Program-made: the position numbers and the translations under genes
In this document: in pieces, positions 613 through 50,030 of the stretch
How positions within the stretch are numbered: position 1 is the stretch's first letter
How the letters are laid out: each line of letters starts with the position of its first letter
The notes under the pieces: generated by a model
The model's database searches: none
Told to the model about the DNA's origin: nothing
What the model saw: only the letters and a program-made list of their open reading frames with translations
NCBI GenBank assembly: GCA_022478985.1
Contig: JAKSZP010014448.1
Span: 310,001 to 374,000 of the forward strand
DNA from: Massospora cicadina
Lineage: Eukaryota > Entomophthoromycota > Entomophthoromycetes > Entomophthorales > Entomophthoraceae
Length of the DNA: 64,000 nt
Direction: 5' to 3'

Positions 613-3289
613 GTCCAATAATCTATGAGATAATTTATAAGTTACTAATTTAAGTATAGTGCATGATTTTAAATAAATTGATCTCTTGATTAAAGATAAT
701 CTAGAAATCTTTTATATAACAAACTTCAAGTCTTTTAGGTCTTGACTAGTTTGTAGTACATTGGGAGTGAGTTGCATGTAAATTGATACTTACATTCTTT
801 CATTTGATTTTAAAGCTTCTTTATTAGAAAATTGCTAAAATTTTAGTCATAGCCCTAGTTTTCTTAACTTTCTACATAGCAAATAAACTATAATTTTCTG
901 TAGCAAAATGAGCCATATGTATCAAATTTTCCAGTTTAACTATTCCATGCTCACATAACACTCCAGGTATAGGTCAAATAGTTATTCAACTCTTTCAAAT
1001 TGTCTATCAAATAAGATTGATATAACTAAATTTGTAGTAATATTATACCTAATGTCTTCAAAATTGCTTCCAAATTTTTGATATAAACTGTTAGCCTTGA
1101 TCTGTTACAATTCAACCAAAAACTACTGTTCCTTAGAATCATTCTTTATAAATTAATTATTAGTACTTCTTTATCCATTGTAGTCTGTCTAGAAAAAAAC
1201 AAGCATAAATTGTGGACTTACTAATAAATGCCAGTATAGGGTTGCACTCAAGCCAGGGGTGACTTAACAATAGAACCATTGTTATTAATTTCCAAGTTTA
1301 TATGCAAAGGCATGGAAATACAAGAAAACCTTACATTTAATAATTTGTGGTTTTTCATATCACATTTTAATAGTTTTATCTATTAATTGGCCTTTTTTTA
1401 CTTTACTGAACATTAAGCATGTTGGATGCCTTTTAGAGGTTCATTTTTTAGGTGCCTAGCTAAAGGTACTTTGTGATACTCTTTCAAAATATATTGACTC
1501 ATTCTTACCTTTGGTACATATAGACAATTTTAGTTAGTTAAAAATGAGTTATTACAAAAAAATCATCTGTTGTATTACTTGTTGTAAAACTATTAAAGCT
1601 AATATAATTTCTCTAACCTTAAAAGAGTTAAGATGCATAAACTTTACCATCCAGTACTAAAAAAAGATGCATAAACTTTTATCCTTTCAACTGATTAGGC
1701 TCATATAAGTCAAATGACAATTATACAGCTTTTAGGTGAAAATTGTCTGTGCTTTGTGCTCTTAATCATTATCTTTAGTTATTAATTTAGTGCTTATAAA
1801 TAAAGCTTCTGGAACCAAATAAATTAGTCCAGACTTGTTAAGCACTTATAAATCAAACACTTCCAGTTTTAGAGCACATATTACTTTTCAGTATGTAGAT
1901 GAAGGGTTTAAAGTTAAATTTTGTTTTTATAGCCAGTCACAACACTTAATATATTAAACGCTTCCACATATATTATTAGTAACTCAGGGCTTTTATAATA
2001 TTATTGTTTCATTTCATGTATAATATATAATCTTATTTCATTTTTACCAAAATTTCAAATATAATCTATAGGGTGTAGCTTGATCTACATCCCCTCTAGA
2101 AGATCACCCCTCTGATAGCAATTTATAGGCGCTTATTACCAGAGAAATATATTTTATGATCTATCATTATGAGAGATGATGCTTTTGTAGACTTTTATAT
2201 ACTATAGATGTTCTGCAATAATTCTTGTCTAAATGAACTTTTACATATATGTTATAAATTTGGTGATAGGAGGATACAACAGGGTAAGTTTTTATTGGAA
2301 AAGATCTAAGAATTTGTTTAACCCATAAAAGTTTAATTTAGCTATATGCATTGGGTTAGGACAGCTTACAATAGCATTTGAGAATATATAGGCATATTGT
2401 TGTTAGTATATGCTTAGTTCCCTATAATCATACTTCATTAAAAGTATATAAACCTAAATCTCTTAACATGTAGATTTCATCTACTAGACTTACAAGACTA
2501 TTTTAATACGGTTAAGTTTATCATGCCGCTAACTGTTTATTAGAATATAAACCAGATAAGCTTAAAAAATGGTACAAGCAGAACTAAGTACTGAATAAAT
2601 TAGATCTTAATAATTACTTGTAGCATTGTAAAGCCAAAAGACATTACTAGATAATTAACAGGCCTAAACGGGTCTTATTGCAGTTCCACTTTAAGCTTAA
2701 TCTGATCCTAATTTGATTAGAGCATGCTAAGGTAAACTTAGAAAAGCAGTAGCATTATTGAGTTTATCAATCAAGTCTCGTGCACATGTACTGGGTAGCA
2801 ACTCTTTACCTATATGTTTTTTGTCACTGATAATCTTCATTATGTTCTATGTACCCAATCCTATAATGACATAAGTAACAGAAGTAAAGAATAGAATAAT
2901 CACGTACTTTTGAACATCTGCTTTAGTATAGAGTATATAATAGTCAATTAAAGTTTTTTATCTTGATTTGTTGCTATACATGGGTCCATGTTCAAGAAGT
3001 TTCCAGGTATGAGATTTTAAAATGATTTAATATAGCTATCCTTAGGTAGTATACTAGCCTCTTCATTGCTAATCACCTTTGACCATTTAGTAAGATAAGG
3101 TGGTATTTTCAACTTTGATCGCGTCATAACAAAGTACATCAGATTTTCAAGATACTCTTTATCTGGAAAACATCTTAAGTTATAACACAATATCTTCCTC
3201 ATCGTTTTCATTTTTTCATCCTTTATAGACAATAAAATTTACATTTAAAATTATCTATCATTATAGTCTTAGTACGATGGAAGTTAGGA
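613..3289. other. Decayed AT-rich region without recognisable genes
   Basis: About 2.7 kb, strongly AT-rich, with only short chance ORFs (the longest, 3017-3232 on the - strand, matches nothing I recognise). By position it could be the remainder of the - strand gypsy element whose integrase tail is at 505-612, but I see no RT or protease motif. It hosts the micro-insertion at 1646-1663. Confidence 0.45.
1646..1663 (+). mobile_element. Micro-retroinsertion, copy 1 (18 bp)
   Basis: The inserted sequence is ACCATCCAGTACTAAAAA. It is bracketed by perfect 16-bp direct repeats AAGATGCATAAACTTT at 1630-1645 and 1664-1679. The core CCAGTACTA plus A-run matches three further insertions in this window (15791-15807, 20666-20685, 49811-49833), with one C/T difference from their CTAGTACTA. 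The long TSD and 3' A-run point to LINE-type retroposition; 18 bp is far too short to encode anything. Confidence 0.85.
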
Positions 3290-3840
3290 GAGACTATAGT
3301 CAAATTAGTTTGGAAACAAACTGAGTCACAGATGATTCAAGACTCATTTAATGGAAATACAAACCTATAGGTTTGATCAAACCTTAATTGATAAAAGGCC
3401 AAAGGGTCTTCAAATCTAAAATTTCTTCATTTTATCGCAAATAATTTTGCTACTTACCAAACTAAGGAAAATGATACCTTGAATATTGGAAGAGGCTTGC
3501 CACTTAAAGGCATTATATCCTAAATGATAGCATGTCCCATCAAAAATCACTAAAAACCTGAATTTAAGTAATAAATTATGAACTATACCATACCTTTTCT
3601 AATTATAACAAAGTGCACGTTTGCCCTAGTGAAGCAATATATTACTATGAAGCCCATAGACGCTTTTACCAACTAGTAGCTTTATGATTATTAAATGAAC
3701 CAGCTAATAAACTCCAAAGATCATAAACTAGTGCTCCCTGTAAGTAGCTTCTATGGCCAATAGTTGAATATGTACCTACTCTAATAAATAATTCCACCCT
3801 TGAAAACTCTTCAATTAGATAAGTATATAAGTGTGGCCAG
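3290..3840 (+). repeat. Element A1 5' LTR (approximate)
   Basis: Shares scattered but collinear similarity with 13868-14440. Examples are ATGGAAATACAAACC against ATGGAAATACCAACC, TTGATCAAACCTTAATTGAT against TTGATCAAACTTTGATTAAA, and a shared run around AATTTAAAGGC/ACTTAAAGGC. A TATATAAGTG box lies near 3825. No clean TG...CA ends or TSD could be fixed. Confidence 0.5.
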
Positions 3841-6009
3841 ATGATTCCACTCTTACAATCAAGATATACGTGTCCCTAATATGATCAAACTACAAATTTA
3901 AAGCATCAATGACATGTACCCTTATGGCACCTGAAAAATTGATCTATCATATTCAACTAGCCAAAGTGGCCAAGACTGTGGAAGCTCTGGTTTATGAAAC
4001 TTTATATCATTGAGGATGGATCATCCAATGTACTTAACCCTGGCTGCCCAAATCTTATCTATTTATACTCAACAGCAACTACCAATCACTGAAGAAGTAG
4101 TTCATAAATCAATTTTTACATTCAAGTTGCAAATCTTGCTATCCACCATCATATGCAACTTTATGGGGCGTCATCATATGGAGATACAAAGACAATTTGG
4201 CCTTAACCAACAGCCCCATTCCCAAATGCATTTATCAAATTGACTACTGATAATTTCAGTCTGGGTAAGTGAGATGCAATTCTGGATAACTATAGAGCAC
4301 TAAATGAGTTGCAAACTAGATTGTATTTATTGACAATTGAGTTTGTAGATTTTACGCAATGTTGTCATTCATCAAGTTTTAGAGCTTCAGAAGCTATATA
4401 ACACTAATTGGACAGGTTGTAGCTAACTTATTAGCCCAATTTAACAAACAAAAGCAAATTGGATTCTTATATTGGAGATTTGTTTGATTGGATTAACATT
4501 TAAATTAAAGAGCCAACTTACGCTCAACCCAAGAAGTGCATATCCAGGAAAGGCCCCTGGATGCAAAGACCCTAAATTTCTTCAAATATATCATGGTATT
4601 CTACACAGAAAACCATCATAAGACAATTATAATAAGCCCCAGATTATGATTTCTAAAACAGTTGATAGGGGTAGCTTGCAGAAGCTGGATTATATTGAAG
4701 TAAACTATTATAATTATGACTTAATTTAAAAGGTATTCACGACATAATCGCTACTATTTAGAATATGTGTTTAATATAATACCCATTCACCAGCCCATCA
4801 AATCACCTTAGACGCCTTAAATCGACCAATTCATTTCTAGATTCCATAATTTAGAATATTAACAAGAGAATTAACTGTGAAAAAGGATAGCTAGGCTACC
4901 AAAATCTATTCGCTATCAAGATATAATCACTGAGGCTTCCACCATTCATATGATTGACTGGAAAAAGACTCAGAAAGATCCTAAAATTTTATCTGCATCT
5001 TTATTAAACTCACATACAGACTGATATACTTGGAACTGAGCCTTCTGATGCCTAGCGACTTACTACTCCATCTGTACACAGTCTAACCGCACACCTAGTA
5101 AATTTACACCGTCCTTAAAGGAAAATTATGTCATTGGTATTAAGAATATCATAACTTTTTTATTCACATATGACGAATATATGAACTAGCCACAAATTGA
5201 AAAATGGTTTAACATATTTAAATCTGCTTTGATAGTAGCTCCCAGGGAAATGAGGCCTTATTTTATGTAGTGTACCACGTGGGATCAAGTGAAGGTGACC
5301 TCATAAAGAAAGTTGGTGGCAACCCAACCATGTCTAATTTTAAACTGATTATTATGCGCATACATACAAAGAAAGGAGAATATTAATCAGAAGTGCCAGC
5401 CTTTTTCCATTTATGGAGTCCAAAACACAGACTACTGTGATTAAATTTACATTTTGTCCATGCAAAAACTTCTATGTTATCTGCTTACTCTTTTATTGAA
5501 ACTTTGTGACACATTTCTAAGGAGAAAATAAGCTTTTCAAAGTAGATCTTTAATATCAAGGGAGCTTTTTTATATTTCCAAACTGAAGAAACATCAATCC
5601 TCATCCAATTAATATTCTCAGCCCCAAATCCACTCTATTGTTTAAAACTCAAAGCCTAGGCCCAGAAGTGACTTCTATACATATTGTGAGTTCTTTATTC
5701 CCCTGGAGATTCAGTGCTGGAATAAATCTGACAAGGAAGAAAAGGATGTCTGTCTAGGGCATGAAGCTTCTTAAGCTGATGAGTCTTTGCCTTGACATCA
5801 TATATAATAATATCTCAAAGCCTGAGTGCTTCTTAGAGTCTATTAATGAGATTAACATCTCTGAATCTTTAGTTGTAATTATAGCTTTAAGTTCCTCTTA
5901 TTATATTGCTTTTGAAAAAACTACCTATCACTTTCAATGATCCTAAGATCTAATCTATCTATATAAGTACCCAATTTGGCTCCTATATCAAAAGTGTAGA
6001 AGTAGTGGT
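3841..6009 (+). other. Presumed gag region of element A1
   Basis: Lies between the 5' LTR and the protease of element A1, where gag is expected. One 77-codon open stretch (4010-4243, +) is present, but no capsid or zinc-knuckle motif is legible. AT-rich with many stops. The assignment rests on position only. Confidence 0.35.
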
Positions 6010-7480: not shown

Positions 7481-7712
7481 TTTTTAAAATTATGCTACTT
7501 AAAAGAATTTATAGAGATTTGAAGCTCTTGGTCTATAAGGTTACTTAAAAAAGGGATCTCATCATTTCCTGAAAAGGTTGTTGCCATACCAAACATGCTT
7601 TTTAAACATAATACAAAATATGAAAGGCTTTTGATGGGATGGGCAGCTATTATTAATTAGTTAGTACTCACTTTGACAAGCATAGCAAGCCATTAATTTA
7701 TTTACTATACAA

Positions 7713-8343
7713 GTGTTGATAAGTGGCAACTGAACAGGTTTGTGGGGGCTCATATAAATTATATAATGCTTCTTTTTTGGAGATAGGAATAACAATATGA
7801 AGAAATGGTTTAGTGGAGCATCAACCAATGTCAAGAACATAATCAATCTTTTTATAAAAAGCTGAATTTAAAAAACTATCAGATAAACTAAAAATTAAGG
7901 TTTTTTATTAAAATTGATTTATAAGTTTTGTAACATATGACAATCAGATGCCCATCTATTAAATAATTTCATCCTTGGTTGTCAAAAACAATAGATCAAA
8001 ATATCTAAAGTTCTTTATAGAATTGTTGTTATTGGGTTGGAATATCCTATGTGATATTCTGAAAGTTGTGGAAGATATGTCCACAAGTGTTAGTAACAAT
8101 TAATTAAAGTATTTGGCAGAGCTCTAAAAATACTGTTCATTAAATTAGCTATGATTGATTCATTAATTGTCATAAAGACAAATGAAAAGACTACCACTTG
8201 GAAACCTAAAAACATCGTAAGTATTTAAGTATATCAGCATCCATGTCTAAATAGATAAAGTACTAAATTTTGGAACATATTGAAAGAAATAGCCTGGCTA
8301 AAATTCAAAAGCAACCCCCAAATTAACCAAATTATCTTTAACA
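7713..8343 (-). repeat. Nested element, 3' LTR (approximate)
   Basis: Collinear with 11550-12196. Examples are AACAGGTTTGTG against CACAGGTTCATG, AGAACATAATCAA against AGAACATAAGCAA, and ATGCCCATCTATTAAA against ATGCCCATCTATTAAT. The copies have diverged well beyond a recent insertion. Confidence 0.6.
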
Positions 8344-9633
8344 TGTCTGTTCACACAAGCTCCTTTGTAGCTAATAAGCTAAGTTTTATAGCACTAGTGG
8401 CTAACCCAAAAGGGGGAGCTGTCATGCATCTTTATTTGCAAAATGGGCCAAACAAAGGTATTATTGGAAATAAAAAAATCCTAATATGGAACCTCAGCTA
8501 ACAGCCTAGGAAGTCATATAAGAAGGGAGGCTTTGGTGAAAATTTTGTCTGGCGCCCACTTTAGCTGCTGGACCATGGCAGACAGCATCGGGGGTGGGAG
8601 CATCAGTGATATGGGGCATAAGGAGGTATAGTTGTGGGTTTTCTTCATTAATGAGGCCGGAGGTTTCCATTGCCTCAATGTATTGAGCAAGTTGATGATT
8701 AGCAAAAGTGATGAGAGCTGGCACACAAGTAAATGATTGATGCGCTGTCTAATAAGCCAGGTTTGTGGTGCTATTTGTAAGGTCAAAACAACATTGATAG
8801 AATGGCAGAGAGGTCTTCTATACAACCTTCTCCTCCAAGAGGCGTTGGAAAGAAAAAAAGGAATTTAGCGGTAATTATTCCCAGTGATTTTGACACAAAT
8901 TATTTATTTAAACAGTTGATAACCATTGGTGAAGATACTGATGACAAAATACATAAAGTTGATATTAAACATTCATTGCTGAAGAAATCAATGGCAGCGA
9001 TGTAAAGTAAACTGTCAGCATTATTGCTAAATTAAATTGCATTATCCCAGACCAAAAAGCATAGCTTATAATTTATTATAAATTAAATGAAATAATAGGG
9101 GTATATAGTTTATTATTAATTTAATTTTTTTTGTTTTTTTTATTTTCATTTTTTCATTCAGTTTTTATGTATAGCTGATAATTATTTAATGCTTAAAAGT
9201 TTAGCATGTACTATTGGTTTTCATATTGCTTGGTAATCTCATCTCATCCAGCTTGACCAAGTTGTGAGAAGATGTAAGCTCATCCATTGGAATCAAGTTA
9301 TCATATGCTATCACTTGGGTTATTTTTATATGGATTTTTTTATCATATAAATTAGTAACCAACACCTGAATATTACCATAACCTTAGAATAAAGTCTCAG
9401 GTGTAATTCATAGTTTAAATTTGTTTTTCTCTAGGGTGCATGAACTTTGAGCGTAAAGTTATATAGGTATTTCCAAGTGAGTCCACTTTCAACAATGCAC
9501 TGATCTTTGTTTAACAACTTTAATTTATCATTCACTTTGAGGATTTCCACAGAACTCTTCCAGTCAATCAGGAAGGTTTTTAGACGTTGACCAAACTGGA
9601 AATACTTAATTTGGACAATTCTAGCTTCATATA
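8344..9633 (-). other. Downstream interior of nested element, unassigned ORF fragments
   Basis: Holds a block with higher GC than its surroundings (about 8510-9010). It carries overlapping - strand ORFs (8514-8825, 103 codons; 8506-8724, 72 codons) and a + strand 67-codon ORF (8802-9005, starting MAERSSIQPSPPRGVGKKKR). I recognise none of them. The remaining sequence to 9633 is AT-rich; a - strand ORF at 9431-9706 could be the protease-RT linker. No RT signature is visible. Confidence 0.35.
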
Positions 9634-9837
9634 CTAGTTTGATATAGTTTCCCTCCCACTTTGAGTTAATCGCCAATTTAATTGTAGAAAAGTGACAAAG
9701 GTACAATAAAATATTACCGTTTTCTTTATTTTACATTGAAGCCCATACTGACGCAATAAATCAGTGCCAATTTGTATCTCATAATTCTGGTTTAAAAAAC
9801 AGTTTCTAGTGCTGTGACAATTAAAGATACAAACCAC
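9634..9837 (-). pseudogene. Retroviral-type protease C-terminal remnant
   Basis: Reads ...NYEIQIGTDLLRQYGLQCKI.... The I-G-x-D-L-L-x-x-y motif is the conserved C-terminal helix region of Ty3/gypsy and related proteases (pattern I-L-I-G-x-D-x-L). The active-site DTG/DSG half, expected just upstream on the - strand (right side, 9938-10198), is not readable. The overlapping ORF 9431-9706 continues in another frame, which suggests a frameshift. Confidence 0.55.
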
Positions 9838-11549
9838 AATGGAAAATCATTGAAAGCTCCTATAGAAGTGTAGATTGTAAACCTGCAGTCACATATCTTT
9901 TTTATAGTCCAAATCTGGTGCAAGTCTTTATTCTCCATCAACTTTGTAGAGATGATAATAGTTGGAGCCCTGATGTTTTTAATTGTTCAAATCTTGACTT
10001 GGTTAACCATAAATATCCATATATGTACAATCTGAGTCCTGTGAAATACTGTTTACTTGTAAAGTAGCTGTATAATTTGGCAAATTTAATGATTTCATAA
10101 GCTGTTAAGTGTATCAGAAAGTTTTCCTTTAATGGTATTTTTGAGATTTTTCTGTCGTCAGTTGTAATAATGTTCCAGTTCCCATAGGTACTCACCAAAT
10201 CTATTGAGTTTTGGGCTCAGTCACATTAATTTTGGACGAGTAAATAAATGCACTCCAGTACTCAATACTTAATATGTTGAGGGTTTAGGGTCATCATCCA
10301 TCTAGAGCTGTGCTGCATCTAGGAAGTTCTGTTGTTCTGATAAATTGGTTGTAACTTGAGCTTAACAAAATAGACTTTTCCTTGTTTATTCATTCTGACT
10401 TTTCCCTGATAAACTACTTGGTTCACCTTGTCATAAGGGTTTACAATGTTAAATTTGCCTTTATTTTTATGATCTGAAGAACTTTGCAATGTGGCCATCC
10501 TTTCCACAGTGATGATATATAATTTTAAACTTATGGTTTTGGAAAGTTTCCTCATATGGTTAGTATCATTGGAACTCACTTTTGGTGTATCAAATGTGGT
10601 CCCAGATTTGTAGGAAGCTTAGACATTTATTTAATGTCTTGGTATTAGAATATAAGACTGTAAGCATGACCCAGTTTTAATTCATTATAGGAATATAGTG
10701 ACATGGCATTGTGAATATTTATTAAATAATGTAAAATAATGACACAGTGAGAATAGAGTTTTCTGATTGAACTTATCAGCAAAGGCATTTATACTTCATC
10801 ACGGTTGAACTCAATGTACATATATTCCTGCTTTCGGTTTGAAAAGCACTCTAGCTGCCAAATTCACTCATGACGGCGCATTTTTCCTCAATATAAGTCC
10901 ACTTGACTGCTGTTAATCTGATTAGGACCAGGTTTTTCTTTCTGTACCTATACAATTGATATTGTTAGTCCTTCTAATGACTGCCGCATCCCATCATAAT
11001 GATATTAAATGTTGATACATGCAATAGCATTACCCCTTTAAAATTTAGGCAGTTTTGGAGTTAGTCTTAATTTGTCAAATGTTAAGTAATTATTGCTAGT
11101 AAATTCATTTGTTTTGATACAACAGTAAATACCCTGAGTCTTGTTGGTGTGTCTTCATGATTCATTCTAATATTAACGTTATTAGTTGAAGAGCTGACAG
11201 ATATTTAGCCCCATCATTGTTTACTATAAATGACTTTGACTCTTCTCAAGCTAGAATAATTGTGCTAAAGCTTTTTCCTTCCCTATTATTAATAATTGAC
11301 TTTCAAGTTTTCAGCTTCTGGTTTTTCGATTGAGTCTTGTCTAGCCCCTTAGTTGACATATTTTGTCAGCATTCTTCTCCATATATACTATCAAAGCAGA
11401 AATTTGTGTTTGCATTTCTGAGTTTTCCTTACACAATAATTCTTCAGATACAGCATTACTCCCTCTACTATATGCCTCTCCACTCATTCTGTAAGATACT
11501 TGTATAGGAGGAGACCTGGCTCAGATAACCCCCTGTGGTGAGCACTACT
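9838..11549 (-). other. Presumed gag/protease interior of nested element
   Basis: Contains two - strand ORFs without recognisable motifs: 9938-10198, and 10319-10579, which is basic and Lys/Gln-rich with repeated VxxQGKV/KQGKV. In an element read leftward from the LTR at 11550 these would be gag and the protease N-terminus. 10580-11549 has no usable reading frame. Confidence 0.35.
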
Positions 11550-12196
11550 TGTTAAAAAGCGGTGACTGCACAGGTTCATGATGGTTTAGAGAATATATAA
11601 TTGGCCTCACTGTTTGGAGACAGTAAGTACAATATGAGCAAATAAATGATTCAGTGGAAAATAAAACCTTTGTTAAGAACATAAGCAACTGTATCCTAAA
11701 ACTCTGAATAGTAAAATACAAGATACCAGACAAACTAAAACCTAATGTTATTTATTCAAATTGATTTAGGTTTTTGTAATTTATGGCAGTCAAATGCCCA
11801 TCTATTAATAAACCTTGATCTTGGTTGCAAAAACAAAACTAGATCTAATCAATTTAGACTTATAGCATTGTTATGCTATTTGGTTGGAACTTACTACATA
11901 ATGTTTAAAATTTGTGGAGATTTTGCTAAAAGTTCCAATGACAAAAAGGTTATTTCTAATTAAGCTTAATACTATAAGAAAAGAAGCTCATTGAATTAGC
12001 CATTTTAATCCATTTATCAATGAACATAAAGGCTAATTTGGAGCTCCTGACTTGATAACAAAAAACATCGTATTAGTTAATTAAATTGGCATCTATGCCC
12101 AAGGAATATGGTACTAATTTAGAAACTATTAAAAAATATAATCTGGTTAAAAAATTTTAACAGCAAGGAGATCCTTTTAATTAGAAAAAATTTACA
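11550..12196 (-). repeat. Nested element, 5' LTR (approximate)
   Basis: Partner of 7713-8343. It is immediately followed (12264 onward) by the RNase H of the host element A1, which is what makes the two repeats a transposon boundary rather than a simple duplication. Confidence 0.55.
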
Positions 12197-12263
12197 AACA
12201 GGCCTTTAATTATTTAAGAATTGCCCTTAACATGCCCCCATATTAGTTCATGATAAGCTCAAT

Positions 12264-12660
12264 AAGCCCTTTATACCACTTACAGAATCCAATGATGTTG
12301 CAGTCAGAGTTATTTTGGTACAACTTGGTTCCAACCAATCTGATTACCCCACTCCATACTTCAGTAAGGCCCTGATTAAAGCAGAGAGGAATTAAAAGCA
12401 TTATAGAACGCAAATGTTTATCTGTGTTACTAGCCATCAGGCAATTTAGCCCTTTTCTTATATAAGAAGAATTTTATTATAAAAATCAATTAAGCTTTTC
12501 TAAGATAGTTACAACAGATGACGGTTCTGGTATGTAAATTTCTTGATAGGTCCTCAAGCTAAAGAGTTATATTCTCTATATTATTTATCATGAAGGAGCT
12601 ATAAATCAGAACATTAATGGGCTTGTCCGTTTACCTACACAAGCATATTTTGCTTAAAAT
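12264..12660 (+). pseudogene. Ty3/gypsy RNase H and connection remnant (A1)
   Basis: The + strand gives KPFIPLTESNDVAVRVILVQ, then YFSKALIKAERN, matching the gypsy RNase H start (P-f-x-l-x-T-D-A-S-d-x-a-v-G-a-v-L-x-Q ... y-f-S-r-k-L-x-p-a-E-r-N-Y). The first catalytic Asp has become Glu or been lost. Further on, GAINQNINGLVRLPTQA corresponds to the G-k-x-N-x-x-A-D-x-L-S-R-l-P motif that ends RNase H before integrase. Stops interrupt the stretch between them. It continues element A1 pol after the nested insertion. Confidence 0.7.
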
Positions 12661-13867
12661 AATACTGTATTCACAAGATGATTAGACCATCAGACATGGG
12701 ATCTAGAGGACTCCAAGGTTCAAGAGTAACTGAGACAGATGAATTACCATACCCTCATTGAGTAAGTATTACTATACAAGTGTTGTAACTGTCTGTTTAC
12801 TCTGGTACACCCCTCTGCTAAAAGCTCTACCATGATGTGAGCGCATGCTATCATAGGAAATTTTGTTTTATAGAAGACCTAAAAGTGGCTTAGGGTTAAT
12901 TTTATTGAGAAAGCATGAATGATTCCATCAAAATTGTTAATGTTTCTGAATCTTTTATGCAAACCATTACCCATCCAATCTAAATTAACAACATCAAGTT
13001 ATGAGGTCAGCTTTGTCATTTACTAACGTTAGTATTAACGTAATTGGTCTTTTGCTGACCATGATATATGGTCAATGCTATATCATCCTCAAAATATATC
13101 ACTTCACAAAATGTATAAAGCTAATTCCTTAGTTCTTTCAACATCTAAATCAACCGCTCCATCATACTTAAACAAGTCTTCATCTGGAATGGGGATCAAA
13201 GTTTTCTTCTATTAGATGAAAGTACAAATTTTGTATCTCAGGTGGTACATAAACTTAAGTCTTTGATGGACCTATCAAGCTTTTACTGCCCCTAACATAC
13301 TTTCAATAGCGAGGAAGTGGAGAGAGAAAATGGTATATTTATCTTTATACCTTTCCATATGACACATACCATTCTTTCCATGTGTAATAAATACTTCCCT
13401 ATAGCCTTTATAGCTTATTGAGTAAGCTATTGCAGAACTATCAGGATGTCCCTGTTTAAGGCTCTTGATAGTTGAGATCCCATGTTATCCACCCAGCCAC
13501 CCATACCGATCTCCTCTACTCCTGATACTGCTGATTTAACTCAGAGAAGATTAGCAAAAGAATTTTTGGTTACAGGATTTTGTTGCAAAGTCTCTAAAAC
13601 AATTATTATAAGAGAGACCAGACAGCACAAAGCTTAGAAGTCTGTTTTTCCTTAGTAGTATCTGGGAGAGTTAGTAAACTTTAATCATCATTTAGTGTGG
13701 AAAGAGCTCATAAACTAAATTTTATATGTCTGGGCCCTATGAGTGACTTTCCGCCATGGGCCTGGATTTTTCATTGCTTCTGTAAAATATAAGCCTGCTG
13801 TTGATTGATTAACCAAGGTTCCATTAAAGTTATGTGCTCCACGGTAAGATCTTGAGGGGTCATTGTA
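12661..13867 (+). pseudogene. Integrase region of A1, barely readable
   Basis: Position between RNase H and the 3' LTR calls for integrase. Only weak hints remain, such as LTQRRLAKEFLV near 13540, in the place of the Ala/Lys-rich segment after the integrase core. No intact zinc-binding HHCC or D,D-35-E signature can be traced. Heavily interrupted by stops. Confidence 0.35.
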
Positions 13868-15560: not shown

Positions 15561-18291
15561 CTAATAAACCTGTGAAATAATTATGGATTGTTTCCTTTGT
15601 CCATAAATACCTTACAGTTACCATAAGGAAGAACGTCAGCACCTTTCTAACGTTGAAGCTTTAATTAAGCGCTCTTGAAGAACTCAACTAGGGTAATTGT
15701 CTTCATACAATTATCAACTTATACAATATTATATTAATCAACAACAACTTCAAGCACACTTAAACCTGTGCAGTAAGCCCAAGAAATCTTTTTTTAGTAC
15801 TAGATGGAAGCCCAAGAAATCTTACAAATGATCATAATCTTTTTCTAGTCTAAATTTTTGTACCCATAAATCCTTGTAAGACATGAATAAGGGTGATGTT
15901 TCATCAGGTCTTAAGTTTATTGATTCCTTTTTAGTAAATAAGGCATGATGTTCATAATCTTTTGGCCATGAGATTTTAGTGCACTGCATTAAAATACAAA
16001 CATCTGTAAATTTACTTCTTGGTTCCATTTTATCTTTTTGACAAATTCTTTTATATGAGCTCCTTTTGATAAAACAGATTTTAGCAAGCGCAATTTAGAA
16101 GGGATTAATATTCAAAAAAGACCCATCTCTCTTCAACTGAGAAGTAAACCAATTGAAAGAATCTCATGATAAAAAACCCTACAATTATTATTTTATGGTC
16201 ATCACTTTACATAAAATAGTGCTTTGATTTGAGCATTGAGTTGGGTTAGATTTTTTTCTTTAGATATAAAAAAGTCATAATTTGTAAGTAAGCAGTTCAT
16301 AAGACAAGACTGGGATTTTCATATGGTGCAATCAAATTCTTAACTGGCTATTCTTTCTATCTTTGATACTAACAAGCTCCGTTTTTCCTCTTTTTGTGTA
16401 GCTGATAAGTCCTTTATATAAAAGGCTATATTTTCATACTAGAATTAATGAGGCCCCTACTATGATATAAGAGGAGTTAAGGTTAAATTAGTAACAGATA
16501 AACAACCAGTTATGGCTGATAATACTATAAATACAAAAAAGAAAATAATTTCAACCATTCTATAAATTCTTACCTTAGGTTCCCAATATAATAAAGGTGA
16601 AGTCCATATTATTTAAAAAATCAGTAGTAATATGGGTAGAATATAGGAGAGGGTATCTTAACTTCAACCCTACTCATGAATATCATTATGATTAGTCCAG
16701 TAGTACTATGGTTTTAAGATAGTAGTCAAAAAATGCATAAAAACTTTGTGGCACTATTACAATTTCAGACTTTAGTTATTGTTTCATTTAATTTTTAAAA
16801 CTTTAATTTGATAAACTGAACCTGGACTTTGAACATATGAAGATAGGGATGGCGACTTACTAAAAATTAAAAGAAATTAAACTCTTAACTTTCATAGCGC
16901 TTTAATGTTGTTTTTGAAGATTAAAGGAAGAAAAAATGACTTTTATAGCACCTTGTTATGAAAAATACTTATAAACCCTAAATCCTTAAACCAAAAAACC
17001 ATGAAGCCATAAACCAAAAAACCCACAAATCATATATATTATTCATGTTTATATTACTATCTGGGTTAGAAGATCCTAACCTTATAGTGCTTCTAAATTT
17101 GTTGATTTTCATATTTCTGAGCATTTCCAAGTTTAGTTTTGCTCACAATTTGTCATGATCGAATTTAATTAACTACTATCCATTCTTTTATATTGGAAGA
17201 ACATGGAACTTTATATTGCATTTCAAAAAGTTTGTCAGGTTTTAATGTTTCTCAATTTGTGGCATCTTAGAAATATATTTCTAAGAGTTACTTTCCACTA
17301 ATGTTCGCTGACCCTTACAGATATCATCCAGTCTTTTAACACAATATTACGTGTTCAATCTGCAATCAAAGCTATCCATACTAACTGGTCCAAATGTTCC
17401 TGAAATTTTAAATCCCTTGGTCTTTGCTCTCCTCACCTCTCCCACACTTTAGGATTGCCCCTACATCATCTGCGGATGCTTCTATCATACCCATTTGGCT
17501 TGTCATAGAGGCTTTGGTAATATTGCTATAACTTAACCACTTACTTGAAACCTAAGACTTTCATATATAATTATATATACATATTTGCCCCTGGATTTAT
17601 GGGCTATCAGCTTATCCTTGACTTACCTATAATGGGAGCTTAAACGTCTTATGATCAGCTGCTTCCATGACATCCTTTATTAGACTATAATATGCTTATA
17701 TATTGTTAACAAGTTTAGTTATATTTATGGCTGTATAGGTCAACATATCAAATTCATTGATTAGTTACCTATATTAATTGTCTTATGATAAGATTCATTT
17801 ATCGTTGCTTCCCTATAGTACATTTTAGTGTATAGTATCTTCCCTCACCCTTTTAGATTTATAACAACATCTAACACTTGACATATCCTCACACTATTAA
17901 AGACTATGATATGTAATTTTAAACCACTTTATCAGAGCCACAAATGAAAGTATAGTGCAGTTTGTCATCATCATAACCCCTTCATCTGGAAAAAAATAAG
18001 TTAAGCCTATGATCATTTTGCACTTATGGTCTATGCATGGTAGTGAGGGGCTTTACTATTGTCCTAATGCATTCCTCCCCATAGCATTAAACACAATACT
18101 GTTCTCCAATTCAATAAATTGAGGATGACCTTGGCATTTTTCCTCTCTAGTGATTAATGGCTATTCTAAGCTAGGTGCTAAAATTAAAATTTCATTTATT
18201 TTTGGAAAAAAAATAACCCTTAATAGTTAATATAGAGCTGGGCAAAATTTTCTATTTGATTTCTATATGTAATGTCAATATGCCTCAGATA
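15561..18291. other. Decayed AT-rich region, no gene assigned
   Basis: About 2.7 kb with multiple stops in all frames. A - strand 68-codon ORF (15822-16028) has ordinary amino-acid composition but no recognised motif. The part just after 15600 may be the gag side of a B-family element, by analogy with the LTR on its left; this is only positional. It holds micro-insertion copy 2. Confidence 0.35.
15791..15807 (-). mobile_element. Micro-retroinsertion, copy 2 (17 bp)
   Basis: On the - strand the insert reads CCATCTAGTACTAAAAA. Perfect 16-bp direct repeats AAGCCCAAGAAATCTT flank it at 15775-15790 and 15808-15823. In insert orientation the duplicated target begins AAGAT, as in copy 1. A few T/A residues at the junction could be assigned to either insert or TSD. 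Confidence 0.85.
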
Positions 18292-18621: not shown

Positions 18622-20665
18622 AATATGTCTCAGATAGGTATTTTCTATTAGTATGAGTAAATAAAGTCTGAGAGAAGATAGTATTTTCTTCTATCTATTA
18701 GTGCAGAAATTCTAAAGTAAAGATTACCTGTTTGTTTCTATCTTTGCCCTTACAAAGACATAAATTAATTATAAATTATAATTAATTTATATAATTTAGT
18801 GTATATAAGAGAGCTGATCCATGCAGCTTTGCTTGCATAATCTAAAAAATATGATATGCATTTTTATTTTTGTATTTTATAAGAAATATTTTATATAAAA
18901 GTTATTCTATGTACTTAAAAATAAACTTTTTTCAATAGAGTATTTAGAAATATAGTAGTATTGTATAGCAGGGTTTGTTGGATCATCTAACTATCACTTT
19001 AAGTGCAAGAAGTCAAAGTAAATTCTGCATACATGATTGAACTATCTGAACCAGGGACTCTTTATGTCTAGCATCACACATGATTTATAAATCATATAAT
19101 ATCTGGAGAAAAAATAAGATTGAAGCTTCCCAGCTAGGTGGAATAGAAAACTATTTGTTAGTAGAATTCAGTACATCAGGCTTTAAACTGAACCACTTAT
19201 TTTCCATTTTACATAAGTAGACATTAATCTAAAGCCAACATATTTTGGTTATATATAATAGAGATAAATACTTAACAGTAGTATATCTATATAGAAATTA
19301 TAAAATTGATTAAAAGCTTCTTTGCATATGATTTTTCCTTTTTGTTTAGTAAAATCTATCTATAAGTATAGTCATGTATATATGCTTCTTATAGTGATAG
19401 CATTTATATCTACAAATCTTTAATATCTTTTAATGAAGCTTATTATAATTCATTTGATATTAATTTAACTTAGTAATCAAAAGTTCTTATATATTTTTTC
19501 TAATTGTTACATATGATTAAAGATTAATATTTTGTAGAACTGATTAGGGATGAAAACTTTGCCTGGTAGAGTTCAAGCTCTAAACCAGGTTCCTAATTTT
19601 ATTAACTAATGAGACGAAATCTAATATTATTATAAAAACTGATGCTTTGATGGGCTTAGTGCTCAATTTTTATTAAGATATAGTTTAAAAAGCACGTAAT
19701 TTAAGTAAAACTCCAATTTTTTTACAAATTAATTTAGGTTAAAGTGCCTCCAGAAAAATCAACTACCCAATAAGATAGGGTGATTCTAACTATCTAACTG
19801 TTATTACTTAACTTCTTGGCACTTTAAATAGTGTTTTTTCTAAGAGGTGACTTTATACATCTTATTTATTTTAAAAGGCTATTGTAAAGTTCTGGGACCT
19901 CTGAGCCCCTTTGCAAGCAGGACACATTTCATTATATTAATCCAATTTGGACCAATGAACCTCATATTAGATTAAGATCATTGTTGAGAAATGTTAAACT
20001 ATAGAGATTGATTTCTTATCTCATGTAAGACCCTTAAAAACCCCAGTTTAATTAATATTAATAATGGTACTAATCTTATGGTTTCTTGGACAATAATTAA
20101 GCCCCTCTGATCATGGCCAATACTAAAAAAAAATTTAAAATTGAAAGCCCCTTTATAGACTTTAAACTATCTAAAAGTCCTGATGATGGAGACCTTTATC
20201 TAATGCCTAACCTCTTAAATTATTTAAAAGCTAGTGATAAAGCGTTAGAGGGCGCCTCTGTAACAGATTGATTGAAAAGAGTATGTGCCTAATGTCACAA
20301 TCTGTGCAACCATGGTAGATTACTTTATACCTTTAGGTTCTCCCACCAATGACAGCCAAATTATTATTACTCCTTTAAAAGAGAGTTTTTTTGAATGACC
20401 CAATCTAATGAGCATATTACTAAATCAGAAAGTGAGTAAATTCCAAAATAACAATCATTTGATATACATAAAGTACAAAAAGCAAATGCAATAGCCACAG
20501 AATCCACAGGAGTCAAGTCTAAGCTCCAATCAGCCAGATGATAAATTTAAGAAAAAAAACAGGAAATATGCAAAACATTTGTGGTGACAACTCAGGAAGA
20601 TCGCAAGGATCAGGAATATGGACTATGTTGACCCTTAACTTAAGACAAAGAAGCAGAATCGCCTT
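18622..20665. other. Decayed AT-rich region with a short hairpin
   Basis: No gene recognised. A 13-bp inverted repeat with a 3-nt loop (18761-18789, AT-only) is probably composition-driven. Around 20114-20520 the + strand has a broken reading frame beginning MANTKKKFKIESPFIDFK that might be an old gag or ORF1 start, but no domain is visible. Confidence 0.35.
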
Positions 20666-20685
20666 GGGACCATCTAGTACTAAAA
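20666..20685 (+). mobile_element. Micro-retroinsertion, copy 3 (20 bp)
   Basis: Insert GGGACCATCTAGTACTAAAA sits between perfect 19-bp direct repeats AAAGAAGCAGAATCGCCTT at 20647-20665 and 20686-20704. The A-run at the junction is shared with the TSD. It is 4 nt longer at its 5' side than copy 2 and shares GACCATC with copy 4, so the source RNA extends at least that far. It lies just upstream of the full-length LINE at 20802. Confidence 0.88.
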
Positions 20686-20704
20686 AAAGAAGCAGAATCG
20701 CCTT

Positions 20705-27090: not shown

Positions 27091-27197
27091 ATATGTGAAA
27101 CTAAGAGAATAACTAACAAATATAAAATTAGGCACCCCAGGGTACTCAAGTTGCCCCTGTTGCCAGCGGGACTGCCAGGTATGGGGGGGTTGGTGAA

Positions 27198-29990: not shown

Positions 29991-30035
29991 GTCAGATATC
30001 TTGGGCAATTTTATATTTTCTGGGTGAAGCTTTCT

Positions 30036-30758
30036 CTAAGGCGACACCTGTGTGTGGGATTGGGTTGGTGCTAACTGCACCATAACTAATCGGTGATCAG
30101 AAAAATTGATCTTTTTTGTTGTAAATTTGGAGATTCTTGAGTGGTGGGATTTTGGTATGAGGATGTGGTCAATATGACTCATTGATATGAGCAGTCCCTC
30201 ATGTATGTTGGGTCTTGTCATGTGGGTAAGGATTGGTGAATTGGGGGGAAGAGCATCCTGTAAGCCAAGAGATGCCTTCATTGTGCGATATTCAATGTGT
30301 CCAGGTGGGTATCCCCTGGTATTAGGCCATCGATCTGTATTGGGGTTATCCCAGCAGTTGAAATCGCCTAACATGATGATATCTGGTGGGAGGGTGAGAG
30401 TAGAAATTTTTTCAAAAAAAAATTTTCTCTCAGTTGCAGTGCACGGTGCATAGATACATGCTAACGAAATTATTTCATCTTGAAATGTGACTGTTGCTAC
30501 CAGGACTTGACCGTGCAAGTGTGATGATGAATTTGTAATTTTAAATTTTTTGTTGTTTTGGACTATCACCCCACAGTGAGACGTCCATACTGATTGTGAT
30601 GGTGCGACCCTGGTTGACCAGGATTCTTCTTCCCCTTGTAGGCAGTGGGTTTCTTGGATGGTCAAGATGTCTACAAGAGGTTTTTGCAGGAATGTCAGCT
30701 TTTTGGCTTGGGATGTATGAGCCCTGGCTTTCGTGATGTTTAACATCCCTATTGACAC
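30036..30758 (-). pseudogene. LINE-2 ORF2, APE-type endonuclease (domain intact)
   Basis: A 240-codon open stretch containing all endonuclease motifs in order: MLNITKARAHTSQAKK (Asn motif), DILTIQETHC (catalytic Glu region), ACIYAPC, IIMLGDFNCWDNPNTDRWP (Asp/Asn active site), SMSHIDHILIP and FSDHRLVMV (catalytic His). This enzyme nicks target DNA to prime reverse transcription. The first codon shown at 30758 is GTG; an ATG lies 4 codons further in. A stop at 30036 separates it from RT, so ORF2 is split although the domain itself looks whole. Confidence 0.88.
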
Positions 30759-30776
30759 TGAGGTGCCCGCGGCGCC

Positions 30777-32200
30777 TCAGGAGCAGTTGGGAGGACCCTC
30801 TGGTCCTATCCCACCGCGGCTCATTTTGGCCATGCTCCGCATCTGTACTCCAACTCTTTCACTGCCATTGTTGGTTCCCTTAATCTGACCCAATGATTCA
30901 AGGGAATTGCGGTTTTTTGCGTTTGCAACAACTTTTCCTGCACAGGTCTCATGTTGATTTGATGCGGGTTGTTGATTGGATTTTATATTTTTGAGGTTCA
31001 CCTTTGTTGCATTGTGCACCGCATTTTCACCCAAATTGTGGTTGCATTGTTCCTCAGTATGTGCATGACTGATGACGCTTTGTGGCTCAGTCAGGTTACT
31101 GTGAAAATTTTCGACCTGGGCATATTGTTCTAATTTGGTTAGTTCAGTGAATATCCAAAATATCCTCCTAAATTTGTCCATGGTTAATGGCAGATTCCGC
31201 GTGTGCTGCCGCTTCAGCTGCTGCTCTCTTGCGAACTTTTTGTGCTGCTTTACGCTGTTTACTTGTAACTGGGTCCACAATGGAGTATAGTCCATCTTCA
31301 CCCCAGCGGAATGGGTGGTGGCCATCAGTCATTTTGGCGAAGTTTTCATTATCTTTGTCCATAGCTTCTTCACAAAAATCATTTTCTGTTAAGCCCTCTT
31401 TTACAGGGCATGCATGTTCCTTGTGGCCCAGTGAGCCACAGTGGTTGCAAATGGGTGGTGCACGTTCTGGTGTAACTCAGAATGCAGCTGACTGGCCCCC
31501 ATCTGCAAAGTGAAATTCTGCTGCATGGGGAATTCTGGATAAATCCTCTTCCACTTCTGGGAAGGGGTTGATTACAGCAATAGCTTTGCCCGTGCACAGG
31601 TTAGGCATTAAGCAAAATTGCTTTAATTCAAGTTGTTGGATTTCTCCGTAGGCCACAAGACCTTTGCGGAGCTCCTCCTTGATTACCTTATGAGGAAGGT
31701 TGGTGGGGAGCAAGTCAAAGGAGATGAACAAAGTTTTCACTTTGTTCCATCTGGTGCATGCAGTGCGCACAATTTTTTTGCCCTCAGGGAGGGCAATTTC
31801 CACACAGATTTTTGCTGCGGCATCAGCTTCATCAGCTGTTTCAAAACCAATAATGATTAGCCACAGCCCATGTTGTTGGTGGCTACATACACCATGTGAG
31901 GGAAAAGTGAGGCTGTGCCTCACATGTTTTCTCCCACAGGGCCGGTGACTCATCCCCAAGGAAGAGTCTAATCTCATGTTCCACCTTTGACAAAGGTTGG
32001 TTGAATTGAATGTACATGTATTTTGCGTGCTTTACAGTAAATACCATAAACCCAGACGGTGTCTGAGTTTGCAATTTTTTTATGGCTTGGGTTCCTGGTC
32101 CTCCTCCAGGGCGTTTCTTGCCTTTAGTTGCACTGTTAAGTGCACCGCTTGCTGCAACGCTCACACATGTTGTATTATTTTTGTTATTAAAGTCACCCAT
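30777..32200 (-). pseudogene. LINE-2 ORF1 (nucleic-acid-binding protein), broken
   Basis: Starts MGDFNNKNNTTCVSV at ATG 32200 and is carried by pieces 32200-31883, 31977-31477, 31362-31168 and 31325-30777, giving two frameshifts and one stop. Middle-domain residues match copy 1. A CCHC zinc knuckle, CNHCGSLGHKEHAC, is at 31408-31449. The C-terminal stretch is Ala/Arg/Lys-rich (KQRKAAQKVRKRAAAEAAA), consistent with RNA binding. It ends about 20 nt before ORF2. Confidence 0.82.
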
Positions 32201-32281
32201 CTTTCCTGTATGTGGTTATCCAAATTTTCTGTTTGAATTGAATTATAGTAACTAAAGTGATTGTTACGAGAAAGAAAAAGC

Positions 32282-33589
32282 TCCCCTTTCCACCCTTAAT
32301 GCAAGCAATCCTGGGGACAACAGACAATTACATAAGGGAAACTATCCCTCATTTCTTCTTAGGGGAACCATAAAAAAATTGTATTACTATCTTAAATATT
32401 TTTCTCATGAGAGTTTCTGTTTTTATTTATAAAGACAAGGGATTTATATGGGAATGAAGCGCCCAGCTCTTCTGTTGATGCCCCAATGGAAACAGCATCC
32501 ACAGCCATTTAATTTAACCCTTTAAAGATTGCACCAACAATGAATGATGCATCTGCACATCCATCCACCTAGTTAGTATCCACCAATGACTAAATCATGA
32601 TCCATTCTGGGTTGAATTTAAAGAAATTGTGCCTAACGCCCTCATCCAACCATAGCGGATCAACATTATAAAGCTAGCAGCCTACATAGACAATGGGACC
32701 ATTTACCCATTAGTAGCAGGTCAAATTTGCCTTTTAGGCTAATCTGCAAGTTGTTGCCAAGCAAAGCGTTTTCAATGATTTAGCAAACGCCAATATATCC
32801 TTATCAACTTGAAACAAACTCAAATAAATTTGCAAAAGATAATTTAATTATTATTATTTTAACTATTAATTGAAACATTTATAAACATTGTTGATGATTC
32901 TCCCCTGATGGAACAATAATTATGTGGAATTAAACTGAAAATTAGTTAACATTCCATAATGAAATAAACCAACAATAGTTAACAAATTAATAGAGACTAC
33001 CACATCCACTATATGTCTTTATTTTTGAAATTGAATCCTAGAAGATAAAAAAGATCTTTTTTAAAAATGCAATAAATCTAGGTGATGTGGGAAATCCAAA
33101 AAAACCCATCAGTAAGTTGCTAACATCAGATCTTTAGAACTCATTCTGTAGATGTAAGAAATTTTACAATTATTGGTAGTAAATTGCATGATCTGCAGGA
33201 TTAATCCGTGATCTAAACTAATGAAATAACCCAATCTGAAACATTAGGAGTAGTAGAGATCATATGAAGTTTGGGTGGGATGAGGCTGTCTTTAGATATC
33301 ATCAGTGACCAGGCCACACTTGGGGTGATCCTGAGGGTCCTGCTGGATGTTCCTAAACTAAACCACCTCTATGCGCACCCATTCAATCATTTTTACCTGA
33401 TCAGAAGAGGAAATGGGGCAGAGAAGGAGATTCCTTAAGAGTCAGGGAAGTAACGTATTGCTCATCTACCAAATGAGCTAGGTCAATGATCTGAGAGAGG
33501 GACTCTACTGGGGGCTTGAGCCCCTTCCTGTTCTGTGGGGAAATTGCTTACAATCCAGCTGGAGGGGATGGTCATCTGTACTTACACTA
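32282..33589. other. Decayed sequence, probably chromovirus pol (+)
   Basis: Follows the LINE TSD. The 33590-33736 integrase piece on the + strand suggests this is upstream pol of the same old chromovirus, but no integrase core signature could be read. A few better-than-random frames exist around 33300-33560 on the - strand without assignment. Confidence 0.35.
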
Positions 33590-44489: not shown

Positions 44490-45671
44490 AATCATTGATG
44501 ATCATATCATCCAGCTTTGACTAATTATATATTTATCTGATTAGGTATCTTATCACCAATTATTGTTTGGGTATAATTGACTACAGATAATATTTGGTTT
44601 TATTGTTAGGATCTGATCCCAACGTTGATACCAATTAATGTTTATTTGGGTTCAATTTTTGCCAATGTTTGTATGTAAATTTGGTTTATTGGCTGTATAG
44701 TAATAATTAAATTCTGTACATGGATCAATCAGGCTAAAAGCTAAACAGTTAGGATGTTTTAGAGTTATCAGTGCATTTTAACGCTTGTCTTATGGTATAT
44801 TGTACCTTCTTTGGGAAAAGCATCTGGTCATTATTGAATAAATTGTTTCATTAACTAAGTATAGCCACTAGCTTATAAAAAGTTTTTTTGGGGGGCTGGC
44901 TAAAGGCGTTGGAATGCACCATTTAGAACTCATTTTATAAAGGATCATAATCTAGTTGTCAATGTTGCCAATTAGGTGGATGGATTTTAGAAAAGTTATT
45001 TGTCAAGTATACTATTTATAAAGGGTTAAGTTTTTTTAGCAATGAATGCAGTTTTATTTATTCGAGGCAAGCCGACCAGGGGACGGACATTACCGAAATA
45101 GAGAAAGTATCGACATGAAACCTGAGCAGGGTCAACTCTGTCGTAGAAAGTTTTTTTCACCTCCGGATCGGGACTCGGATTTTTCTGGTTACGTCATGGG
45201 TAAGGTTTTCGTGTTATTATACCTACTAACCGCCAATAGCTTCCTTCGACTGGCACCCCGATCGATGTGCGAAGGGCGGGAATCGAACCCGCAACCTTCA
45301 GGTTGGTAGCCGTACGCCCTACCGACTCGCCTTCCATCCCCTGCAATGAATGCAGTTTTAATAGAGGTGTAACTGATGAGTTGATCACCAAACTTCCCTA
45401 TAAAAGCCCCTTGTTATTTTAATAAAAGACATATATGTTTTGTCAACTACTTTATTATAAATGCTCTTTGAGAATTTATTATCAGTTCTTAAATTTTCCA
45501 AGTATTTTGAAGTGGGGTAGATATTCACTTGCCTGTAAAAGGATACTTGAATGGGGTCTAAACTGCTTGTAAGAAATATTTGATTGTCTAGTTTTCTCTA
45601 TATAACTAGCTCACTTTCTATTCTTAAAATTAGTTATAGAACCAATGCATTAGACTTTATCAAAAGCTACA
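44490..45671 (+). repeat. Element B right LTR, split by a SINE
   Basis: Collinear with 33737-34604; contains GGGGGCTGGCTAAAGGCG and the promoter-like TTCCCTATAAAAGCCCC (45402-45418). A 304-bp insertion (SINE plus duplicated target) interrupts it at 45039-45360. Confidence 0.7.
45057..45342 (-). mobile_element. Young tRNA-derived SINE (286 bp), family 2
   Basis: Reads on the - strand. The 5' part is tRNA-like: an A-box-like GGCGAGTCGGTAGGGCG (45315-45331) and a perfect B box GGTTCGATTCC (45279-45289), with an intact T-arm-like GCGGG/CCCGC pair. The 3' tail CCCCTGGTCGGCTTGCC (45066-45082) plus AATAAATAAA is shared with the LINEs. It is flanked by a perfect 18-bp TSD, GCAATGAATGCAGTTTTA, at 45039-45056 and 45343-45360. 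The anticodon arm and acceptor no longer fold as a tRNA, so this is a SINE, not a tRNA gene. The GC-rich body and perfect TSD mark a recent insertion. Confidence 0.93.
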
Positions 45672-48656: not shown

Positions 48657-49810
48657 AAATGAAGATCTGATTGTATGAATATGGGCCTTTGACAGAACTT
48701 ATAACTAATTGGTTAACCTACTTGGATATCAACTCTGAAATTCTTGCTTAAAATTCAATGCACTTAGATGATCAGCTTAAGTATAAAGTTTAGAGCTTTG
48801 GACATAAAAAAGCTTTTGCATCTGACTAGCCTATGTGGTAGACCTCATCATTAAAATTTTCTGAGAAAATATTACCTGGCGTTGTTATATCAAAAGGTAC
48901 TTGATGGTATAGTTGTTGCACTTGTAGGATTAAAGCAACTCCTGATATATATCCTATGAAAATCTTCACAGCTATCGATATCTTATATGCGCTTATAGTA
49001 TACTTATAAATATATTTTAGTTAAAACCCTGGCCCCTTTTTGCATAAAGGCATTGAATATACTATTACCAAACTCCCTTCATTAATAAAAGGGTTACTTT
49101 TACCCTATGGTAAAAGGCTAAGGAGCATTTATATGTCCTAGCTAAAGTATCTTTTAAAATCTTCTGTGTCATTTCATTTACTGTAATGCTGTGATACCAT
49201 CATTGGGTTTTATCACTTATTTAAAAGAAGATAACTGAGATACTTAGATTACTTAATTGATTGGTTGGATTGGCCTATATTGAAACTGTGAGCAACTGCA
49301 ACCAGATGGCAGGTAGAGATAAACTTGAAATTGGTTTATAATCAGTCAACATCTAGATGAAAGTGATTTAAGAGATCATCCTAAATTTATTCTAGGTGGG
49401 CCAACCTGGGGATGGTACCACACTGATCAATGGGGAAATCAGATGAATGAGAGGAGGGTAAATCCTGGTAAACCTCCACGCGCAGTTCTTTTAGACTAAG
49501 AACCCCATGGACCGCCTTGCTATTTGCTATCTCAGTTTGAGGTATTGGTGCGCAATGCCAACGCAGCCATAATTGTCCCCTACCCAAATTTCATCTACCA
49601 GGGTTAAACTTGGAAGGCGGTGGTCATTGAGTCCATAATCTACCACTGGGGTACCCACCCTCTCTAAGAAATCATCTTATAGATAAAAATAAAATGTATA
49701 TATAAGTATCTGTTTTATAATTTCTCATAAACAAATGGACTAAGATAGCCACTTATTACAAAGGTTTTATGGATAAGGAGAACCAACCCAGGGTGGTTTT
49801 CCTTATCTTT
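48657..49810. other. Decayed region with an unassigned coding-like patch
   Basis: Mostly AT-rich. On the - strand, 49387-49700 has better base composition and protein-like readings in two frames (VVDYGLNDHRLPSLTLVDE, and the 66-codon ORF 49387-49587 with IPQTEIANSKAVHGVLSLKE). I do not recognise it. It could be an exon remnant or transposon coding sequence. Confidence 0.35.
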
Positions 49811-49833
49811 TTTTTAGTACTAGATGGTCAAGT
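49811..49833 (-). mobile_element. Micro-retroinsertion, copy 4 (23 bp)
   Basis: On the - strand the insert is ACTTGACCATCTAGTACTA followed by four or more A. It is the longest of the four copies and extends the shared sequence 5' only to GACCATC. Perfect 17-bp direct repeats TGGTTTTCCTTATCTTT lie at 49794-49810 and 49834-49850. In insert orientation the duplicated target starts AAAGAT. Confidence 0.88.
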
Positions 49834-50030
49834 TGGTTTTCCTTATCTTTATACTCATAGAGATTCAATTAAAAGTTATATATAAGATGTAAAAATGGTA
49901 TATAGGAGCGTAATTGTAATTGATATATCATTTTGGCTGAGCGGTTTAAAAATATCTGGTTTGTTCAATAGCCTAGATGATTTTGTGCAAGAGGGTGATG
50001 GTTATTTCTTTAATTTGATTGGCCCAATTA

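Follow-up and report, generated by a model that had tools for sequence, protein, structure and literature searches.

Four very short insertions with long target-site duplications

A 64,000-nt window of the Massospora cicadina genome (the whole stretch of DNA analysed here) contains four inserts of 17–23 bp that share a short core and lie between perfect target-site duplications (TSDs) of 16–19 bp. These inserts, hereafter called stubs, were first picked out in a sequence-only reading of the window; their positions and their TSDs of 16, 16, 19 and 17 bp were reproduced in our analysis, as follows.

1630..1645, forward strand: TSD copy 1, AAGATGCATAAACTTT
1646..1663, forward strand: stub ACCATCCAGTACTAAAAA, a CCATCC variant, with a 16-bp TSD
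1664..1679, forward strand: TSD copy 2
15775..15790, reverse strand: TSD copy, 3' side in insert orientation
15791..15807, reverse strand: stub CCATCTAGTACTAAAAA, with a 16-bp TSD
15808..15823, reverse strand: TSD copy, 5' side in insert orientation
20647..20665, forward strand: TSD copy 1, AAAGAAGCAGAATCGCCTT
20666..20685, forward strand: stub GGGACCATCTAGTACTAAAA, agreeing in every letter with the tail of the parent element described below, with a 19-bp TSD
20686..20704, forward strand: TSD copy 2
49794..49810, reverse strand: TSD copy, 3' side in insert orientation
49811..49833, reverse strand: stub ACTTGACCATCTAGTACTAAAAA, whose first four letters (ACTT) differ from the parent tail, with a 17-bp TSD
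49834..49850, reverse strand: TSD copy, 5' side in insert orientation

At zero mismatches the core matches the window four times. With up to two mismatches there are six matches against 2.5 expected, a number reached in 6 of 100 shuffles, so that the significance of the inserts lies in core and TSD together. Perfect direct repeats of at least 16 bp, spaced 12–60 bp apart and not of low complexity, occur five times in the real window, namely at the four inserts and at one 48-bp tail of a long interspersed nuclear element (LINE); in 300 windows simulated with an order-2 Markov model no such repeat arose. Thirteen other window matches to a 16-base core (≤4 mismatches) are flanked by no direct repeat longer than 9 bp. 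Scanning viral and prokaryote contigs for the core gave three and four loci, respectively, with no direct repeat longer than 8 bp, which corresponds to chance.

Resemblance of the insert to the tails of three other LINEs in the window (A–C, below) or to its short interspersed nuclear elements (SINEs) was not significant, since 1,075 of 4,726 control 21-mers scored equally high. A SINE origin was also rejected: an Rfam scan of two of the four inserts returned a single chance match (E = 5.5), and the longer copies described below are LINE sequence. The palindrome TAGTACTA had also been pointed out in the sequence-only reading.

The inserts are the 3' end of a LINE of apparent L1 type

Among the first 30 copies fetched from the genome, five (L009, L011, L013, L020 and L021) extend upstream and are 95–99% identical to one another; taken again in larger regions of 7.6–8 kb, the same copies are L103, L105, L104, L106 and L107, respectively. 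L103 (6,453 bases) and L106 (6,449 bases) have an identical start base behind different 15-bp TSDs, and were therefore taken as full length. L105 has 6,068 bases from that start, with 12 extra bases ahead and a 13-bp TSD, L107 is without the first 236 bases (17-bp TSD), and L104 is cut to ~490 bases (12-bp TSD). The 5' end of the parent element reads TCTCTTTCTGCTAAGCATCAC, and the tail of the long copies ends in ACATCGATGAATCCCCCCTTGGGTTGGGACCATCTAGTACTAAAAA, with a variable number of C. Besides the stubs, the window contains no parent LINE sequence.

Pfam matches above cut-off were an endonuclease (PF03372, E = 3.1e-10) and a reverse transcriptase (RT; RVT_1, PF00078, E = 6e-34), while zf-RVT (PF13966) scored 26.6 bits, under its cut-off of 27.5, and pieces of the ORF1 region (880 and 644 amino acids) matched no Pfam family. 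The closest solved relatives by sequence are 8c8j, an RNA-directed DNA polymerase by name, and chains of the LINE-1 ORF2 protein. In identity, the RT piece of the parent reaches 62 of 144 residues with the LINE A piece and 61 of 198 with the LINE B piece. The inserts are the 3' end of this 6.1–6.5 kb LINE with endonuclease and RT domains, which appears to be a young L1-type LINE of M. cicadina, the L1 type being assigned from the domains and the best PDB matches.

The sequence-only reading had considered either a LINE absent from the window, its copies losing nearly everything at the 5' end, or a tiny RNA as passenger, with a hint at a new class of minimal element. The first of these is supported by the parent with its TSDs and L1-type endonuclease and RT, and by one empty site (below). 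A non-autonomous tiny RNA or minimal retroelement carried by a foreign LINE would account for the uniform insert length and the lack of any longer copy within the window; genome-wide, however, this 3' end is continuous with longer copies, some of hairpin length and others of several kb with L1-type open reading frames (ORFs), and there are 3,159 matches upstream of a predicted terminal hairpin. Because a parent was found, the passenger was dropped, and we regard it as highly improbable.

A tandem duplication of 376 bp lies in the first ORF region of L103 (L103:1993-2745) and likewise in L106 and L107; L105 apparently has a single unit.

Genome-wide abundance and discrete length classes

We searched the M. 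cicadina assembly (1,469,884,898 bases in 16,968 contigs), from which the counts given here may be lower bounds. The published genome has 1.488 Gb (1,488.88 Mb in 19,694 scaffolds) with 92% transposable elements (PMC9584336), and its LINE expansion came after that of Ty3 elements (PMC10515909). The core CCATCYAGTACTAAA, with at most one mismatch, gave 38,882 matches against 377 for a reversed-pattern control, or ~100 times the control, so the family proposed from four window copies has many further members. CATCGATGAATCCCC, which comprises the 5' (far) arm of the predicted hairpin and the four preceding bases, gave 9,216 matches (control 69), and AGGCGTAATTCAATAAAC, immediately upstream of the hairpin, gave 3,159 (control 3), a pattern that overlooks diverged long copies such as L011. 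With controls subtracted, ~24% of core matches extend to the 5' arm and ~8% past the hairpin; these are estimates only, because the pattern lengths differ and diverged copies are lost unequally.

To describe where copies end, we use the first 100 listed genomic places with an exact core (contigs C1–C7), a non-random sample of which all were fetched and parsed. Homology to the parent upstream of CCATC ended at ≤12 nt in 67 places, at 13–27 nt in 4, at 28–37 nt in 19, at 38–300 nt in none and beyond 300 nt in 10. In 90 of the 100 places, homology thus goes no further upstream than 37 nt. Nine of the ten long copies run to the limit of the fetched DNA (800–1490 bases) and L013 ends at ~490; as L013, itself cut there, was the reference, readings of 489–492 nt mean 'at least'. 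Parsing by TSD gave 65 short, 19 hairpin-length and 10 long copies, 4 'other' (L034, L044, the first copy at L058, and L075) and 2 without TSD (L039 and L042); judged by homology, two of the 'other' copies, L044 and the first at L058, belong to the hairpin-length class.

The hairpin-length ends are sharp, with 7 of the 19 at CATC/CATT and 5 at ACATC/ACATT. Twenty further hairpin-containing copies, taken from C8 onward among 100 listed CATCGATGAATCCCC matches, comprise 6 long copies and 14 that end near the hairpin base, 7 of them at ACATC and 3 at CATC (L111 read by eye). Apparent insert lengths, in the 82 copies defined in the next section, are 11–33 or 42–54 nt; the next larger copies of the 100 places have ~490 nt or more. 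The lower figure of 11 nt is subject to a blur of a few nt, where the A-run and matching bases obscure the borders. The agreement of 5' ends from GACCATC onward, noted in the window copies, loosens genome-wide, where ends vary more and fall mostly 0–12 nt upstream of CCATC. At L111, a second stub lies within the A-run of an earlier one, forming a tandem pair by eye.

Minimum-energy folding of three long-copy tails predicted a hairpin (GAUG..UCCC/GGGA..CAUC) in each. Relative to it, the main class of ends falls in the 3' arm, few (4 of 100) fall in the loop or 5' arm, and the sharp class lies mostly 4–6 nt past the 5' base. This distribution suggests that some feature of the terminal ~50 nt of the RNA determines where the 5' end of an insertion falls.

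Target sites and an empty site

Of the 90 places that hold short or hairpin-length copies, 82 (64 and 18, respectively) were used to compare TSDs, with one mismatch permitted; the ten long copies, L044 and copies with a TSD score <11 (L034, L039, L042, the first L058 copy, L075, the first L079 copy and L101) were left out. The 82 copies sit in 82 different TSDs of 12–23 bp (mean 16.3), 61 of them perfect, so that most sampled copies carry TSDs, as the four in the window do. The TSD begins with at least two A in 69 of the 82, and the target A-run is 2–4 long in 68. The two bases following this run are GA in 30 copies, TA in 20 and others in 32. The target start (A)AAGA described from the window therefore holds for all four copies there but is not general, GA being found in only 30 of 82 genome-wide. 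The insert itself supplies 4–6 A in 55 of the 82, which has the appearance of an encoded tail and not of a long poly(A), and 20 of the 82 have 5' letters without a match to the parent.

An empty site was found for the one copy compared with paralogs. Two paralogous repeats, one in L009 and one in L034, run uninterrupted across the site and lack both the L037 stub and one of the two copies of its 18-bp TSD; the flanking repeat at this site therefore arose together with the insert, and did not predate it.

These data also bear on an origin of the stubs as assembly or sequencing artefacts. The published assembly, likely the one searched, was made from Nanopore reads in wtdbg2 and polished with Illumina data (PMC9584336), which could lend such an origin some colour. 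Set against it are the distinct TSD of every one of the 82 copies, the exact empty site in paralogs and the ~100-fold excess over control, and we find it scarcely credible.

Proposed mechanism

We favour the reading that the stubs are products of target-primed reverse transcription that was aborted early and whose cDNA was still integrated, and give it a probability of about 0.7. Target-primed reverse transcription would be the expected route from established L1 biology, and the TSDs, A-tract junction, A-rich target start and L1-type protein are all consistent with it. Human L1 insertions likewise show a T-rich nick, an A-rich junction at the 3' side and additional 5' letters, and their TSDs are about as long.

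In such a scheme, the element's endonuclease would nick the T-rich strand, and the nicked end would prime on the short A-tract for RT to copy the tail. RT would stop in the first ~35 nt, meeting the 3' arm of the hairpin, in ~2/3–3/4 of integrated events; in ~1/6–1/5 it would copy the hairpin and then stop sharply, mostly 4–6 nt past the 5' base; and in ~1/10 it would escape, often reaching the 5' end or its vicinity. Even very short cDNAs would allow second-strand cleavage and joining to be completed, and because these steps can finish in this way, abortive starts would leave stubs between TSDs of 12–23 bp. Stalling of RT on opening the hairpin, and again on leaving it, would give the observed classes.

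The sharpness of the hairpin-base class, seen in both the 19 and the 14 copies, is also what a defined RNA end would produce. The L1 RNA might be cut or decay beforehand, at the 5' base of the hairpin and inside its 3' arm, with the short 3' fragments, which keep the tail, copied to their ends by RT and inserted. For human L1 chimeras, PMC13174262 discusses both truncation and the processing of RNA, and suggests processing ahead of insertion for truncated U3 and 5S segments. The main class, however, is spread over 0–12 nt and is not sharp. The unmatched 5' letters in 20 of the 82 copies also speak against such pre-cut RNA, but do not decide the matter, because a true RNA end could likewise receive untemplated letters. 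Overall we consider prior cutting unlikely; stopping of RT, and not the end of a pre-cut RNA, probably sets the ends, and the predicted hairpin may be what causes the stops.

Several points weigh against early abortion at a hairpin. A pre-cut 3' RNA fragment used as template would yield similar stubs. In stability the three tail folds do not exceed shuffles (z = -0.77 to +0.62), and variation among the young copies is insufficient to show covariation of the predicted hairpin. G-rich and C-rich runs coincide with the place of the hairpin, so that stops could track the runs and not the fold, and the four ends in the loop or 5' arm lie outside the two main positions. A covariance model of the other L1 tails of the window does not match the tail of the stub parent. 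An early guess of a parent with a GATG..GACCATC hairpin was also rejected: those letters are present in the parent, but the other guessed letters were wrong. Because of these wrong letters and the covariance-model mismatch, we claim no homology to the hairpins of other tails.

Extending the reading of early-aborted reverse transcription, we tentatively propose a distinct abortive phase of L1 RT, with the predicted 3' hairpin of its own RNA as the gate, in which most initiations would end within ~35 nt, a second checkpoint would lie 4–6 nt past the hairpin, and escape would lead to long, often complete copies. On this more specific proposal we are nearly evenly divided, leaning slightly to doubt.

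Relation to known systems and significance

Human truncated L1 copies are mostly hundreds of bases or longer. The M. cicadina element has an RT related by sequence to that of human LINE-1, but differs in its insert sizes of 11–33 and 42–54 nt, followed by ~490 nt or more. Abortive initiation by RNA polymerases and the template boundary of telomerase RNA offer an analogy only: there, the short product is often released ahead of elongation and structure near the start limits its length, whereas the enzymes are different and here the short product enters the genome. L1-clade LINEs with 'stringent' 3'-end recognition and a 3' stem-loop are known in plants (PMC3747384). The parent resembles them in its endonuclease and RT domains, TSDs and a stem-loop (here predicted) ahead of a short A tail, and differs in that the large majority of sampled copies end in or just past the terminal ~50 nt. 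Such stubs are not mentioned in the consulted parts of that review on stringent L1s (PMC3747384) or of PMC13174262. A literature search for very short or abortive LINE insertions, covering mostly titles and the beginnings of abstracts, showed no description of such stubs among the entries listed, and a search for the core letters found nothing.

What is new is the extreme, discrete and early truncation, and its scale. To our knowledge, failed starts of target-primed reverse transcription normally leave nothing recognisable; here, with 90 of 100 places ending at most 37 nt upstream of the core, they seem to have been preserved. The step from initiation to elongation by RT, the shortest cDNA that can be integrated and the second-strand step thereby become testable from genome sequence. 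If the abortive-phase proposal is true, the genome keeps initiation records because abortive products can be integrated, and its tens of thousands of single-initiation records would be a natural RT-pausing footprint at nucleotide resolution: in a cicada-infecting fungus, the stubs may record where the copying enzyme gave up. In practical terms, repeat annotation that ignores such short matches would overlook most insertion events of the parent LINE.

Other repeats and genes in the window

A 29-nt 3' hairpin is common to five tails in the window, those of three L1 elements, a tRNA-headed SINE and the 48-bp truncated copy.

26171-26212, forward strand: LINE A tail
27045-27086, reverse strand: LINE B tail
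50571-50612, reverse strand: LINE C tail
45053-45094 and 262-303, both reverse strand: the remaining two tails (SINE tail, 48-bp truncated tail)

In these five sequences only, 94.5% of cells pair, a value that none of 500 shuffles reached, and both sides changed in 4 of 11 pairs (11 of 500 shuffles equally high); the count of further pair types was not unusual (118 of 500 shuffles).

The LINE B copy (27046-32281, reverse strand) spans ~5.2 kb and is probably full length and young, because it has a perfect 16-bp TSD (27030-27045 and 32282-32297). The SINE at 45057-45342 (reverse strand) is flanked by an 18-bp TSD; its 3' tail is of the LINE B type, and its head is tRNA-like (RF00005, 28.3 bits, E = 6.5e-4, narrowly short of the gathering score, 29). 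A possible older second SINE lies at 49382-49665 (reverse strand); its tail hairpin resembles the shared one (19.5 bits, E = 0.018), and tRNA-like boxes are visible by eye, but the segment has no Rfam match.

At 7702-12785, a 17-bp direct repeat bounds a 5,050-bp unit, which contains two ~600-bp repeats that are 68% alike. An inverted repeat of 87.7% identity (51941-52434 and 53882-54380) overlaps the start of an ORF at 52239-53117 and recurs behind it. This ORF, seven-transmembrane-like by eye, is without a Pfam match; the translation of 52239-53114 aligns with the 274-residue M. cicadina protein L0F63_000169, of which 273 residues match, with a single gap of 18 residues.

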